Positions 1,420 to 15,236 of a stretch of DNA of 21,727 nt are shown piece by piece (position 1 is the first letter of the stretch; every line of letters starts with the position of its first letter). Source of the DNA: a virus; IMG/VR virus record IMGVR_UViG_3300020437_000695, positions 1 through 21,727 of that record, one strand, 5' to 3'. The notes under the pieces are model-generated. The model made no database searches and was not told the DNA's origin. It saw only the letters and a program-made list of their open reading frames with translations. The translations under genes were made by a program, and so were the position numbers.

Positions 1420-1731
1420 TTACCCAAACACCTTTTCGTTAGCTAGAGCCTTGTAACCTGCGGCTACGACTCTTCTTAAAGGAGCTCCCATTTTGTAGAT
1501 AGTTTTACCATTTTTGCTTTTATTAGCATATATGGCGTATCCTTTCATTCTTAATGCGGATACTGTCGCTCTAGGGTTAGCAATAGAAAATCTGTGTTTC
1601 ATTGCTGATTCCGTTAAAGCCTCTCCATCTTTAAGAGCATTAACTAGTCTTGTTTGTTTAGTTGTTTTCATCGTTTCTCCTTTTTCATTTGAAAAAGATT
1701 TTTTTGTACTCAAGTTTAACCAATTAAACAT
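1420..1731 (-). CDS. Winged-helix/HTH-type small phage protein
   Basis: Open frame of 103 codons from ATG 1731, where AAGGAGG sits four bases upstream, an excellent ribosome binding site. A second in-frame ATG (codon 21, 1671) also has AAGGAG in front of it. From codon 21 the protein reads MKTTKQTRLVNALKDGEALT, then AMKHRFSIANPRATVSALRM and a basic hairpin YAIYANKSKNGKTIYKMG. This is a helix-turn-helix with wing, like small proteins I remember from marine T4-like phages (about 80-90 residues, ending VVAAGYKAL). It probably binds DNA; the target is unknown. The longer form adds an unlike 20-residue N-terminus. It is the first gene behind promoter P3. Confidence 0.8.
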   Translation of the reverse strand: MFNWLNLSTKKSFSNEKGETMKTTKQTRLVNALKDGEALTESAMKHRFSIANPRATVSALRMKGYAIYANKSKNGKTIYKMGAPLRRVVAAGYKALANEKVFG

Positions 1732-1755: not shown

Positions 1756-1784
1756 AGAATATCATAAATCGAAGGTATTGTCAA
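1756..1784 (-). promoter_or_regulatory. Early sigma-70 promoter P3 (TTGACA-17-TATTCT, extended -10)
   Basis: On the minus strand the -35 TTGACA is at 1784-1779 and -10 TATTCT at 1761-1756, spacer 17 bp, with TGA before the -10. The -35 is again preceded by AAAAC. It faces the winged-helix gene and lies back to back with a plus-strand late promoter. Confidence 0.75.
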
Positions 1785-1814: not shown

Positions 1815-1822
1815 TATAAATA
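1815..1822 (+). promoter_or_regulatory. Plus-strand T4-type late promoter TATAAATA
   Basis: A perfect match to the T4 late -10 octamer TATAAATA, and the only one I found on the plus strand. In T4 the start point lies about six bases downstream, here at or inside the ATG at 1827 of the 39-aa ORF. The transcript would run into nrdB in antisense. Confidence 0.55.
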
Positions 1823-1826
1823 CAAT

Positions 1827-1946
1827 ATGAGAAATTTAGCCCAAGAAATAGACCAATTTTCATTTGTCATAGGAATGGCCTATGGTGCGTTCACACTTTT
1901 AATGATAATACTGTTCGTTTGGCTAATGATTCGTATGAATCGTTAA
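1827..1946 (+). CDS. Small single-pass membrane peptide (39 aa), opposite strand
   Basis: ATG at 1827, TAA at 1944-1946, 39 residues. The peptide begins MRNLAQEIDQFSF, then has a long hydrophobic helix from about residue 13 to 35 (FVIGMAYGAFTLLMIILFVW and following), and ends RMNR. This fits a single transmembrane segment with a short polar N-terminus and a basic C-terminus. It is the only plausible plus-strand gene in the window. TATAAATA lies four bases before the ATG, so the mRNA would be leaderless or nearly so; no ribosome binding site is visible. Its TAA overlaps the nrdB stop (minus strand TAA, 1945-1943) tail to tail. The family is unknown to me. An alternative reading is that the promoter makes only antisense RNA to the nrd operon. 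Confidence 0.5.
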   Translation: MRNLAQEIDQFSFVIGMAYGAFTLLMIILFVWLMIRMNR

Positions 1947-3073
1947 AGAGATAAACCACCAAATGTCTTTTTATCAACATCTTGCTTAACGCCACCAATA
2001 ACATAGCTTGAAATTTCAGTTTCTTGAGGAGCCACTTGTACTTCTGCACCTGCAATCCACTTTTGTGTCCAAGGTAATGGGTTAGCTTGTGTTACTTTAT
2101 ATGGACATTTTAATCCAACTGCGGTCATACGTTTACAACAAATCCACTCAATATAATTATCAAGTAATTGTGCGTTTAGACCAATCATTGAACCATCTTT
2201 AAACAAGTATTGAGCCCATGCTTTTTCTTGTTCTACTGCATCTACAAACATTTTGATACATTCATCTTCTGTTTCTTTTGCAATTTTGATGTAGTCTTTA
2301 TCATCTTTTGGAAGTAATTTTAATAGTGTTTGTGTACTTGCTAAGTGTAAGTTTTCGTCACGTGCAATTAACTTGATAATTTTTGCGTTACCTTCCATTT
2401 TCTTTAATTCTGCAAATGCCCATGAACATGCAAAAGAAACATAGAAACGTACACCTTCAAGAATATTAACACTCATTAAAGTTTTGTAAAGAGACTTTTT
2501 AATTTCGTATTTTGAGATTTTTACCTTTTTACCATTTACTGTATGATTACCTTCTCCTAAAAGATTGTAATAACCTGTCATTTCAATTAGTTCATCATAG
2601 TTTTTAGAAATATCATCTGCACAATCAACGATTTCACCAATGTCCATCATTTCATCAAATACTTTTGATGGATCTGCATAAACATTTCTAATGATATGTG
2701 TATATGAACGTGAATGAATCGTTTCACTAAATGTCCAAGTTTGAATCCATGCTTCCAGTTCAGGTATAGAAACAATAGGAGAGAACGCCTCAACTGGTGC
2801 CCTACCTTGTACTGAGTCTAAAAGAATTTGTCTTTTTAAGTTTGAAGTAAAGATATGTCTTTCATGGTCTGTTAAGTTTTTAAAATCGTTTGCATCTTTC
2901 AATACATCAACTTCTTCTGGTCTCCAGAAAAAACCTAACTGCTTATCTGTTAGCTTATCAAACTGTTTATACTTTAGCATATCATATCGCTGAATATTTA
3001 CGCCGCCTGATGGATCCAAAAATGCTAATGCCTTTGTATGATCCGTTTTATTCTCTGAATTAAAAACTGACAT
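1943..3073 (-). CDS. nrdB: Ribonucleoside-diphosphate reductase, class Ia beta subunit
   Basis: NrdB carries the di-iron centre and tyrosyl radical that NrdA uses to reduce ribonucleoside diphosphates to deoxy forms for phage DNA synthesis. The protein has 376 residues, the usual length (E. coli NrdB 376). All expected metal ligands are visible by alignment to E. coli: D86 (LLDSVQGR), E117 and H120 (FSETIHS), E206, E240 and H243 (ARDENLH), plus radical tyrosine Y124 (SYTH). This makes it a normal, active-looking tyrosyl-radical enzyme. The C-terminal tail KKTFGGLSL would be the NrdA-binding peptide. Start ATG 3073 has AGGAAG upstream. It is last in the gp32-to-nrdB block, 10 bp after the unknown 197-aa gene, and its stop overlaps a small convergent ORF. 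Confidence 0.97.
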   Translation of the reverse strand: MSVFNSENKTDHTKALAFLDPSGGVNIQRYDMLKYKQFDKLTDKQLGFFWRPEEVDVLKDANDFKNLTDHERHIFTSNLKRQILLDSVQGRAPVEAFSPIVSIPELEAWIQTWTFSETIHSRSYTHIIRNVYADPSKVFDEMMDIGEIVDCADDISKNYDELIEMTGYYNLLGEGNHTVNGKKVKISKYEIKKSLYKTLMSVNILEGVRFYVSFACSWAFAELKKMEGNAKIIKLIARDENLHLASTQTLLKLLPKDDKDYIKIAKETEDECIKMFVDAVEQEKAWAQYLFKDGSMIGLNAQLLDNYIEWICCKRMTAVGLKCPYKVTQANPLPWTQKWIAGAEVQVAPQETEISSYVIGGVKQDVDKKTFGGLSL

Positions 3074-6040: not shown

Positions 6041-6508
6041 TTAATGTCTATTGTTTATTTCAGCATCTTCCATTCCTGCAACCCTCAGTTTAATTATGTT
6101 AGTCAACTGAAAGTGTTTAATTTCAAAACCCTTAGTTATCCCTAAAAATTGATTTCGTGTATATGCAACTTGATTGATTAGTTCTGATATTGCAACAACT
6201 TCTTGTTCTCCATCAGCATACTTTTCTGCATCACGACTACTAAGTGCTTTATTGTAATTCTCTAGATACTTTCTTAAATATTCACTTCGTTTCTTTCTTA
6301 ATTGTATATTAAGATGTTCAAGGATAGCCTCTATTTCTTGAAGTTGAGCAAAACGTAATTCAACATATGAAGGTAAGTTTGTAGCATTCTTTTCTACATT
6401 ACCATATATCTTGACTTCTTTTCTTGCCTCTAGTAATTCATTAGAATAAAAATCAACCATAGCTGGTATCTTACTCCAATCTTTTACAACTTCACTGTAC
6501 CAATTCAT
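6041..6508 (-). CDS. uvsY: UvsY-like recombination mediator
   Basis: 155 residues (T4 UvsY 137), mostly predicted helix, rich in Lys/Glu, without cysteine. The C-terminal segment KGFEIKHFQ (residues 126-134), followed by LRVAGMED, matches the RGFAIKHIQ block near the end of T4 UvsY. The preceding helix (ISELINQVAYTRNQFLG) lies where T4 has its hydrophobic oligomerisation helix. UvsY helps UvsX displace gp32 from single-stranded DNA to start recombination and recombination-dependent replication. The context fits: gp32, uvsX and uvsY are all in this block. The rest of the chain is too diverged for me to align by eye, so the call rests on the C-terminus and the neighbours. Start ATG 6508 follows the preceding stop by 3 bp. 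Confidence 0.78.
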   Translation of the reverse strand: MNWYSEVVKDWSKIPAMVDFYSNELLEARKEVKIYGNVEKNATNLPSYVELRFAQLQEIEAILEHLNIQLRKKRSEYLRKYLENYNKALSSRDAEKYADGEQEVVAISELINQVAYTRNQFLGITKGFEIKHFQLTNIIKLRVAGMEDAEINNRH

Positions 6509-13461: not shown

Positions 13462-14670
13462 TTATGCTTGGTTATTAGAACCCATTGCTTTTTTGGCCGC
13501 CATGCCTGCACCTGCACGTGCTACTGTGCCTTTGATGCCTTTCTTAAGCAATGCACCACCTACTGCTTTAGCTACTGGAAGTACGGCAGGAAGAATTTCA
13601 TCTACCTGTTCAACTTCTTCTGAACTTGCTTTTTCGATGTTTGCTAATTTTCTTAATCTATCTAATTCAGATTCTAAGCCTGTATCTTCTACTTCTTCGG
13701 AATTTTTTTGTTCACTAGTTGTTTCTACCAGACCTAAGTCATCTAATTTAGTTAAAATCCAATCCATTGGATCTCCGTCTCTAGCTTTCATTGTACCATA
13801 AGGCATTTCATCTGAATAGTAATCAAATAAGTCTTGATATAGTTCTCCGCCAAGTTCCATATCATCTACATTTGATACACCATGTTTGGCTAAGATTGCT
13901 TTTACTTCATCTGCTTCAAAACCTTCTTCAATAGATTCATTAGCTTTTTCTTTTTTATCTTTGGCCGCTTTTTTCATTGTTTCTTTTTTATCGCCGTCAC
14001 CATCGATATCAGCAAAGTCAGGCTTTGCTTTCTTTTCTTCTACTTTATCTTCTTTATCGTCTTTTTTACCTTTTTTCTTATCTAAATATGCTTGAAGACC
14101 TGGGTTAAGTTTACCTTCTTCTACTGACTCATTTTTCAGTTTTCTTTGTTTACGTAGAAGTTCAGTCATTTCATCACTACTTTGAATAGTGTTTGCTTTT
14201 TGTGGATCACCATCGTCTTTGGCTTTCTGTGCCATGTCTTTTAACTTTTTAATTTGTGCTTCCACTTTTTCTAGACTGCCAGGTGTTCCTACTTTAGCTT
14301 CTTTTACTTCTTCAAACTCATTCATTAAAGATTCAAAGATTTCATTTTCATCTAAAGAATATTCTAGTGGATTATCACCTCTTGAAGGTGCTTTATCTAA
14401 ACTTTTCTTTTGTTTTGGAATACTTTCGCCTGATTTTTTTGAATAATCGTCTAAATCTAACTTATCATTAGCTGGTGTTGGTTGGTATTCATTTTCTTCT
14501 ATGCTTTCATCACAACCACATGGGCTTGTGCCACATCCACATGATGCGTCCTGCATACCTGCTAAATGCATCATACGTAAAATTTCGTCTGAATGTTCTG
14601 TGCTTGTGTTTGAAGTAGTAACTGACTTACCATTATCATCAGTAACAGTTAAATTGTAATGCTTACTCAT
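13462..14670 (-). CDS. Acidic 402-aa protein, possible prohead/internal protein
   Basis: 402 residues, highly charged. In order: a small N-terminal beta segment (MSKHYNLTVTDDNGKSVTT), a cysteine cluster CGCGTSPCGC (C44, C46, C51, C53), a long Lys/Glu/Asp-rich, probably disordered or coiled region (about 60-245), an EF-hand/dockerin-like loop DIDGDGDKKE (221-230), a compact segment (about 250-315, EGFEADEVKAILAKHGVSNV), and a cationic Gly/Ala-rich amphipathic C-terminus (VAKAVGGALLKKGIKGTVAR). The DxDGDGDKKE phrase is familiar from acidic assembly proteins of marine T4-like phages, but I cannot name the gene. Start ATG overlaps the preceding stop as ATGA, so it is coupled to the 189-aa gene. 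Confidence 0.85.
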   Translation of the reverse strand: MSKHYNLTVTDDNGKSVTTSNTSTEHSDEILRMMHLAGMQDASCGCGTSPCGCDESIEENEYQPTPANDKLDLDDYSKKSGESIPKQKKSLDKAPSRGDNPLEYSLDENEIFESLMNEFEEVKEAKVGTPGSLEKVEAQIKKLKDMAQKAKDDGDPQKANTIQSSDEMTELLRKQRKLKNESVEEGKLNPGLQAYLDKKKGKKDDKEDKVEEKKAKPDFADIDGDGDKKETMKKAAKDKKEKANESIEEGFEADEVKAILAKHGVSNVDDMELGGELYQDLFDYYSDEMPYGTMKARDGDPMDWILTKLDDLGLVETTSEQKNSEEVEDTGLESELDRLRKLANIEKASSEEVEQVDEILPAVLPVAKAVGGALLKKGIKGTVARAGAGMAAKKAMGSNNQA

Positions 14671-15236
14671 TTTTCATCTCCTGAGATAACAGAAGGGCTT
14701 GATTTTTCTTCCTTATCCATTTGTTCAGGTGCTGGGTCTCTTTTTTCTTTTGGACTTAATTCATTTTCTTTTGTTTCCATCTCTTTTGGTGTAAGAGTTT
14801 TTAAGAAATCATCGATAAATGTACGTCCATAGTTTTTACCTGCATCTGATTCTGATTTTTCTTCGGAAGTAAGTAAAGGTTCTGCATTTTCATCTTTATC
14901 TTCTTCCTCTGTTGGTTCCCATCCTTCAGGATGTACTGCAACATGTTTAATATGCATACACAATTGGTCTGCTAATTGTTGACGTAAGATATCGGCTGAT
15001 ACAGGATAACCTGTAACAACATCAATCTTAGATACTTCTGAATTTTCTACATCTTTGAAGAACATAGGATTTTTAGAGATAGGTGTTTTTGATGTTTTAG
15101 ACATATTTCTTAAATCGTATTTGCCTAAAAACTTTTCAATTCTATCTTCTGCGTTCTCATCTATATCACAACAAAAACGTAGAGTCATTTTATGCTCTTT
15201 TTCTGATTCTGTTAAAAATTCTTTAAAACTTTTCAT
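14667..15236 (-). CDS. 189-aa phage protein, unassigned (MKSFKEFLTE start)
   Basis: I choose ATG 15236 because GGAG stands six bases before it and a late promoter 22 bases before it; a TTG twelve bases upstream would be too close to that promoter. The N-terminus MKSFKEFLTESEKEH is the kind seen on many T4-like assembly proteins. Residues about 17-105 form a folded part (MTLRFCCDIDENAEDRIEKF, then FFKDVENSEVSKIDVVTGYP and ADILRQQLADQL). The C-terminal 80 residues are acidic and low in hydrophobics (WEPTEEEDKDENAEP, ending VISGDEK). No known enzyme motif or membrane segment is visible. It is translationally coupled to the 402-aa gene by ATGA, suggesting joint action in head or packaging assembly. 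Confidence 0.82.
   Translation of the reverse strand: MKSFKEFLTESEKEHKMTLRFCCDIDENAEDRIEKFLGKYDLRNMSKTSKTPISKNPMFFKDVENSEVSKIDVVTGYPVSADILRQQLADQLCMHIKHVAVHPEGWEPTEEEDKDENAEPLLTSEEKSESDAGKNYGRTFIDDFLKTLTPKEMETKENELSPKEKRDPAPEQMDKEEKSSPSVISGDEK

Follow-up and report, generated by a model that had tools for sequence, protein, structure and literature searches.

Does a short open frame that points against all of its neighbours encode a late phage protein, or is it a by-product of an antisense transcript? The question is raised by positions 1815-1946 of the window (the whole stretch of 21,727 nucleotides analysed here, a 21.7-kb virus record whose terminase is closest, among the 60 matches listed, to those of PA5oct-like Pseudomonas phages, at 54.6%). 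Judging from the list of ORFs, every plausible gene of the window lies on the minus strand, as a sequence-only reading of this DNA had stated, and the long ORFs of the plus strand sit opposite minus-strand genes. That reading had described a late promoter box, a four-base gap, an ATG, 39 codons and a stop overlapping that of nrdB – and had seen in them either a late small membrane protein or an antisense RNA. Each of these elements is present: the box is followed by CAAT and by an ATG at 1827, and the TAA that closes the 39 codons (1944-1946, plus strand) overlaps the stop of nrdB (1943-1945, minus strand). The features of the locus are:

1815..1822, plus strand: T4-type late promoter box TATAAATA (exact sequence; NATAAATA in 11 of 11 contigs)
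1827..1827, plus strand: predicted RNA start, on the first base of the start codon (from the pyrimidine-purine step T1826-A1827)
1827..1946, plus strand: 39-codon gene MRNLAQEIDQFSFVIGMAYGAFTLLMIILFVWLMIRMNR (homologs, alignment, silent-change excess, predicted helix)
1943..3073, minus strand: nrdB, the convergent neighbour (phrog_86, E 1.4e-143)
1756..1784, minus strand: candidate promoter of sigma-70 type lying upstream of the divergent gene, TTGACA-17-TATTCT (10 of 12 consensus positions)
1420..1731, minus strand: divergent gene for a 103-aa winged-helix protein (PF14090 HTH_39, 22.5 bits against a cut-off of 21.3; synteny)

A TG precedes the second hexamer of the candidate promoter at 1756-1784. 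Inspection by eye also shows Shine-Dalgarno-like sites at two in-frame starts of the winged-helix gene, one being the ATG at 1731 and the other the Met of MKTTKQ.

Conservation of the frame and its predicted product

Taken by itself, the box is no more than chance would supply: two exact copies of TATAAATA occur in the window compared to 2.95 expected from shuffles, and 77 of 100 shuffles contain at least two. What lifts the gene above this expectation is that relatives conserve both frame and box. A search for the small ORF in related genomes – the check that had been proposed along with the two readings – recovered ten further IMG/VR contigs (L001, L002, L003, L083, L084, L085, L086, L090, L091 and L099), which together with the window represent eight distinct nucleotide sequences. 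An ATG-started frame is kept in all ten relatives (39 codons; 40 in L003 and L090), as is a NATAAATA box, at a gap to the ATG (window included) of 4 nt in eight contigs, 5 nt in two and 21 nt in one. The eight share the arrangement TATAAATA-NAAT-ATG and the two (L003 and L090) have CATAAATA-AACGT-ATG, while in the last (L099; IMGVR_UViG_3300020463_003399, 2773-2930) TATAAATA is followed by a 21-nt leader containing GGAG. This leader arose when 16 nt at the start codon were duplicated in tandem (one mismatch), which leaves the first ATG, 5 nt past the box, out of frame; L099 thus reads as a natural switch from the leaderless to the leadered layout.

Every reading frame of 25 contigs or genomes, and of loci L001-L104 minus two that are pieces of the window, was searched with an HMM of the peptide; no further contig passed the inclusion threshold, the next match having an E value of 0.029. 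Among 80 nrdB loci, many of them short, the gene is found in three (L001-L003). Both ORF and box are missing from L092-L094, even though the divergent winged-helix gene there is 93% identical: the unit is therefore dispensable. L003 also has a longer open frame (72 aa) with a possible Shine-Dalgarno start upstream. This frame was set aside as the true gene; by eye, the extension crosses the reverse complement of TTGACA.

A further prediction concerns substitutions. If the frame is translated then silent changes should be in excess, and the sequence-only reading had named the lack of a synonymous pattern as a point against a gene. The pattern is there: the window, L083 and L086 differ at nine silent columns and one replacement column (P 6e-6, computed against a neutral fraction of 0.79 with columns treated as independent), and with L084 and L091 added the counts are 19 silent and 18 replacement columns (P 4e-5). 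Comparison of the window with L001 gives a dN/dS of 0.88, and the frame by this measure evolves fast in some lineages. One antisense frame has a pN/pS of 0.51 versus 0.48 for the true frame; the antisense frame carries stops in six of the eight sequences. On the evidence of these alignments measurable selection acts on the protein, and 1827-1946 is a real gene.

The product is predicted to have one transmembrane helix, in agreement with the single span claimed earlier: the AlphaFold2 model is a single helix over residues 2-38 (mean pLDDT 89.7). An alignment of seven sequences shows M1, D9, Q10, S12, G16, M17, G20, F30 and V31 to be invariant, including the GxxxG at residues 16-20. The peptide combines an acidic N-terminal part, the GxxxG within the helix and, in most sequences, a basic end; by the positive-inside rule, the C-terminus is expected to face the cytoplasm. 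Among 50,697 phage records no annotated relative rose above noise (one match, E 4), and the best match in PHROGs (E 0.18) is to an entry without function. Pfam CcmD (PF04995), a short single-span haem exporter protein, scored 18.3 bits, below the curated gathering cut-off of 25.6. The short span and basic C-terminus are common to CcmD and the peptide; no Ccm gene was noticed in the window and the likeness is a lead only.

Spacing between late boxes and start codons

In T4, late boxes span -13 to -6, the start lying about one helical turn downstream of the box (both as given in PMC2988020). By this numbering a gap of 5 nt puts +1 at the A of the ATG, and the gap of 4 nt in the window puts it at 1828, the T of the ATG – that is, inside the start codon, where the sequence-only reading had placed it. 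A1827, one base before, would nonetheless be the likelier start on sequence grounds because leadered boxes (below) show a start signature, a pyrimidine-purine step: T1826-A1827 is such a step, at an offset of 4 after the box here compared to 5 in leadered boxes. Upstream of 1827 no Shine-Dalgarno sequence was apparent by eye. G001, a 187-kb relative contig, encodes a late sigma factor (phrog_12791, E 2.3e-78), and T4 gp55 used as query matched one of 11 related records, most of which are fragments.

The relationship between box and ATG was followed through 25 contigs and genomes (the window, G001, G003-G016, G018-G024, G026 and HTVC008M; 1,640,800 bases), in which 597 NATAAATA boxes were scored for downstream ATGs opening at least 60 codons. 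Counts at distances 0 to 9 were:

ATGs: 1, 1, 4, 1, 5, 51, 3, 2, 2, 0
Protein clusters (ORFs grouped by single linkage, unverified as genes): 1, 1, 3, 1, 5, 34, 2, 2, 2, 0

As ATAAATA is identical when read backwards, a reversed-pattern control is weak, and permuted motifs were chosen instead: 20 of these, matching 506 to 1118 boxes apiece, never exceeded 15 clusters at a single one of the ten distances (200 cells), or seven at distance 5. Since permuted motifs too give isolated peaks, it is the height at 5 alone that is decisive. The 80 nrdB loci alone yield eight cases at distance 5 from 97 boxes, and in the same loci the control TAATAAA peaks at distance 3 with 19 cases, probably through repeated homologous genes; it is for this reason that clusters were counted. 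The clade of the window has a spacing of 4, not the common 5, and just five clusters of at least 60 codons share it.

ATGs past boxes stand either at exactly 5 nt, mostly without a Shine-Dalgarno sequence, or at 18 nt or more, mostly with one. Such a sequence precedes 6 of 56 ATGs at distances 4-5, 0 of 7 at 6-8, 7 of 16 at 9-17, 153 of 204 at 18-35 and 77 of 129 at 36-59; the baseline, for ATGs anywhere that open 60 codons, is 1923 of 12789. The base preceding the ATG in the 5-nt class (n = 51) is T in 42 cases, C in eight and A in one, and hence a pyrimidine in 50 of 51. Among leadered boxes (n = 220) the pyrimidine-purine step is most frequent at offset 5 (62%, versus 22-30% at offsets 2-4 and 6-8), and the step at offset 5 is also found in 50% of 203 boxes without such an ATG nearby. 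The simplest reading is that +1 lies at offset 5 in leadered and 5-nt boxes alike, and that in the 5-nt class this position is the start codon. Given the clustering at 5 nt, the scarcity of Shine-Dalgarno sequences and the signature of leadered boxes at the same offset, RNA synthesis from a T4-type late promoter apparently begins at the AUG; the leaderless reading of the locus has, for its part, grown stronger with the evidence from the class.

Beginnings like MKINEIISE are frequent among proteins of the 5-nt class, in G001, G005, G012, G013, G014, G015, G023, G026 and PA5oct: a pattern picked after the list had been viewed fits 10 of 56 proteins at distance 5 versus 5 of 311 at 18-45. Such beginnings resemble the capsid-targeting starts of T4 and support the 5-nt ATGs as start codons. 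In the window itself, an ORF at 14667-15236 (minus strand) starts with MKSFKEFLTE, has GATAAATA 22 nt upstream and matches a virion structural family weakly (E 0.00043). G012 carries, at 168646-178073, several genes (some radical-SAM-like by eye) each with its own 5-nt TATAAATA start, two of these starts being divergent (178050/178073).

Annotated genomes allow these starts to be compared with called genes. The pelagiphage HTVC008M has 45 boxes: an annotated start lies 5 nt on in nine, 7 nt in one and 8 nt in two, and the remaining boxes within 70 nt of starts are at 18 nt or more. All nine of its distance-5 pattern matches are annotated starts, of which five belong to virion genes (tape measure, DNA end protector, tail tube cap and two baseplate genes) and the others to a 2OG oxygenase, CsgF, a regulator and one gene without an assigned function. 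The nine ATGs lie at 6280, 7562, 16007 (minus strand), 18916 (minus strand), 19456, 31132, 49760, 75559 and 142360. Melnitz has four ATGs at distance 5, three of them annotated starts. PA5oct has two with at least 60 codons, at 144985 and 180252. At the former, the record annotates the start of a structural protein, which it marks ESI-MS/MS. The latter (NC_071039, minus strand) lies 5 nt past GATAAATA and five codons inside an annotated gene, and opens a protein beginning MKIKEIILEN; the annotated start at 180267 may be too far upstream by these five codons. PA5oct has eight pattern matches in all, and the three compared with the annotation comprise one start, one site five codons inside a gene and one deep inside a gene; of five distance-5 matches in Atu_ph07, the one compared lies away from a CDS start. 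The 65 boxes of T4 are followed by no ATG opening at least 60 codons at 0-9 nt, and the same holds for Syn9; S-PM2 and P-SSM2 have one each at 5, the class being otherwise absent. Among distance-5 pattern matches no CDS start was found in those checked from T4 (2 of 2), S-PM2 (1 of 2) and P-SSM2 (2 of 3), and Syn9 and RaK2 have a single such match each.

Protein families show both layouts. In a family of 265-aa proteins the seven members from the 25 sources with 67% identity or more (the G001 query included) all have a distance of 5, as has a remote PA5oct member whose record bears the ESI-MS/MS mark, whereas five of six more distant homologs (L224, L232-L234 and G018) have a longer leader behind the box; the sixth, L223, has a Shine-Dalgarno sequence and no exact box was seen. 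Some members of this family carry GGAG about 12 nt upstream, which would be usable if longer RNAs reach it. In a kinase-like family the distance is 5 nt for G001 and G005, and 25-33 nt for G012, G013, G019, G021 and G022.

Alternative readings of the locus

Taking these lines together, we consider it probable that the locus encodes a 39-aa membrane peptide with a single span, expressed late, with a gp55-type start on the AUG, a leaderless message and a place in the class with a spacing of about 5 nt. The gene, its conservation, its box and the spacing class can be read from the sequences themselves; where the RNA starts, its lateness, its leaderless translation and the topology and function of the peptide are inferred. 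A gp55-type late RNA polymerase would recognise TATAAATA and begin RNA at the A of the ATG; with its start there the mRNA would have neither leader nor Shine-Dalgarno sequence, and its translation would thus need ribosomes that accept a 5'-terminal AUG. The gene would be one member of a wider class present in part of the T4-like phages, and the peptide would lie in the inner membrane, basic end inside, oligomerising via GxxxG. Of the late small membrane protein first proposed, the membrane-peptide gene is real and the late-type promoter and leaderless layout are borne out. As to what the peptide does, our best guess, tentatively held, is that it adjusts the envelope or the timing of lysis late in infection.

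Were the box instead the source of a late antisense RNA that silences nrdB and nrdA, the 39-codon frame would be incidental. In the window, L083, L086, L091 and L099 the ORF does face nrdB directly, in convergent orientation, and no terminator-like site was found at 1600-2100 of the window; read-through RNA could reach nrdB in all contigs. In six of the ten relatives (L001, L002, L003, L084, L085 and L090), however, the convergent neighbour is a methyltransferase gene, with nrdB beyond it. Because this gene intervenes and would be met first, direct opposition to nrdB falls away as a conserved role, and antisense control – the second proposal of the sequence-only reading – finds no support in that capacity; with frame, start codon and silent-change excess all conserved we regard the antisense explanation as very unlikely.

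Two further explanations accept the gene and dispute how it is expressed. A ribosome-binding element, consisting of the AT-rich box held at a fixed distance from the ATG and serving Shine-Dalgarno-free translation on longer RNAs, would account equally for the 5-nt spacing, which fits a ribosome footprint rule too, and for the rarity of Shine-Dalgarno sequences there (6/56). Yet the same box stands 18-35 nt before genes that have Shine-Dalgarno sequences, and there too the pyrimidine-purine step falls at offset 5; homologs alternate between both layouts behind it; late sigma factors are encoded in G001, HTVC008M and Melnitz; and T4 possesses the box without the 5-nt class. We judge such an element quite unlikely. 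Equally improbable as the antisense RNA is transcription of the gene from elsewhere upstream, through the sigma-70-like overlap or by read-through, with the late box in a secondary role: a sigma-70 start from the weak match TTGGAA-17-TACAAT that overlaps the box (9 of 12 positions; two such sites in the region compared to 1.6 expected) would, from the usual spacing, land inside the ORF, the window has no in-frame ATG, GTG or TTG upstream, and L084 has a 1-nt length change just upstream. In its favour, besides the match itself, are the overlapping early and late promoters known in RB49 and cyanophages (mentioned in PMC2984593).

Known systems and the possible role of bS21

The late promoters of T4 (TATAAATA, served by gp55, gp33 and gp45) have the same 8-bp box, and G001 encodes a sigma factor of the gp55 type; the difference lies in the many genes at exactly 5 nt, of which T4 has none. 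Leaderless mRNAs are likewise familiar – lambda cI transcribed from PRM is an example, and they are reported for mycobacteria – and the RNA predicted here would resemble those of bacteria and phages in beginning with AUG and having no Shine-Dalgarno sequence. It would differ from them in apparently coming from a set of genes, some of them virion genes, in which this layout recurs behind phage late promoters. A passing remark in PMC5312081 holds that phage transcripts are often leaderless, the same source giving leaders of 26-491 nt for AR9, and the main text of a review of T4 translation never uses the word 'leaderless' (PMC3014915). No systematic union of leaderless mRNAs with T4 late promoters in part of the T4-like phages was found in the open-access literature; each by itself is already known.

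One extension is that a T4-like lineage runs a leaderless late regulon and that its own bS21 retunes the ribosomes of infected cells to AUG-first or Shine-Dalgarno-free mRNAs, which we hold to be rather unlikely. bS21 (PF01165) was found in 15 of 38 records, among them all six profiled phages with two or more distance-5 genes (HTVC008M, Melnitz, PA5oct, G001, G012 and G013), whereas T4, S-PM2, Syn9 and P-SSM2, with none or one, have no bS21; the ten phages of this profile were hand-picked and are not a random sample. bS21 also occurs without a 5-nt pattern match (Phosso, Vibrio phage 2.275.O and the 61-kb contig G017), and several fragments (e.g., G005, G014 and G015) contain 5-nt genes but show no bS21 match. 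The association is a lead, and common descent could account for it.

If 5' ends lie where predicted, marine phages – one of SAR11 among them – bypass Shine-Dalgarno initiation for some of their late genes. The annotation of late genes, both of start codons and of small genes, would then change, and the role of phage-encoded bS21 would become directly testable. The spacing from box to ATG, moreover, offers a means of finding unannotated small late genes, as with 1827-1946.
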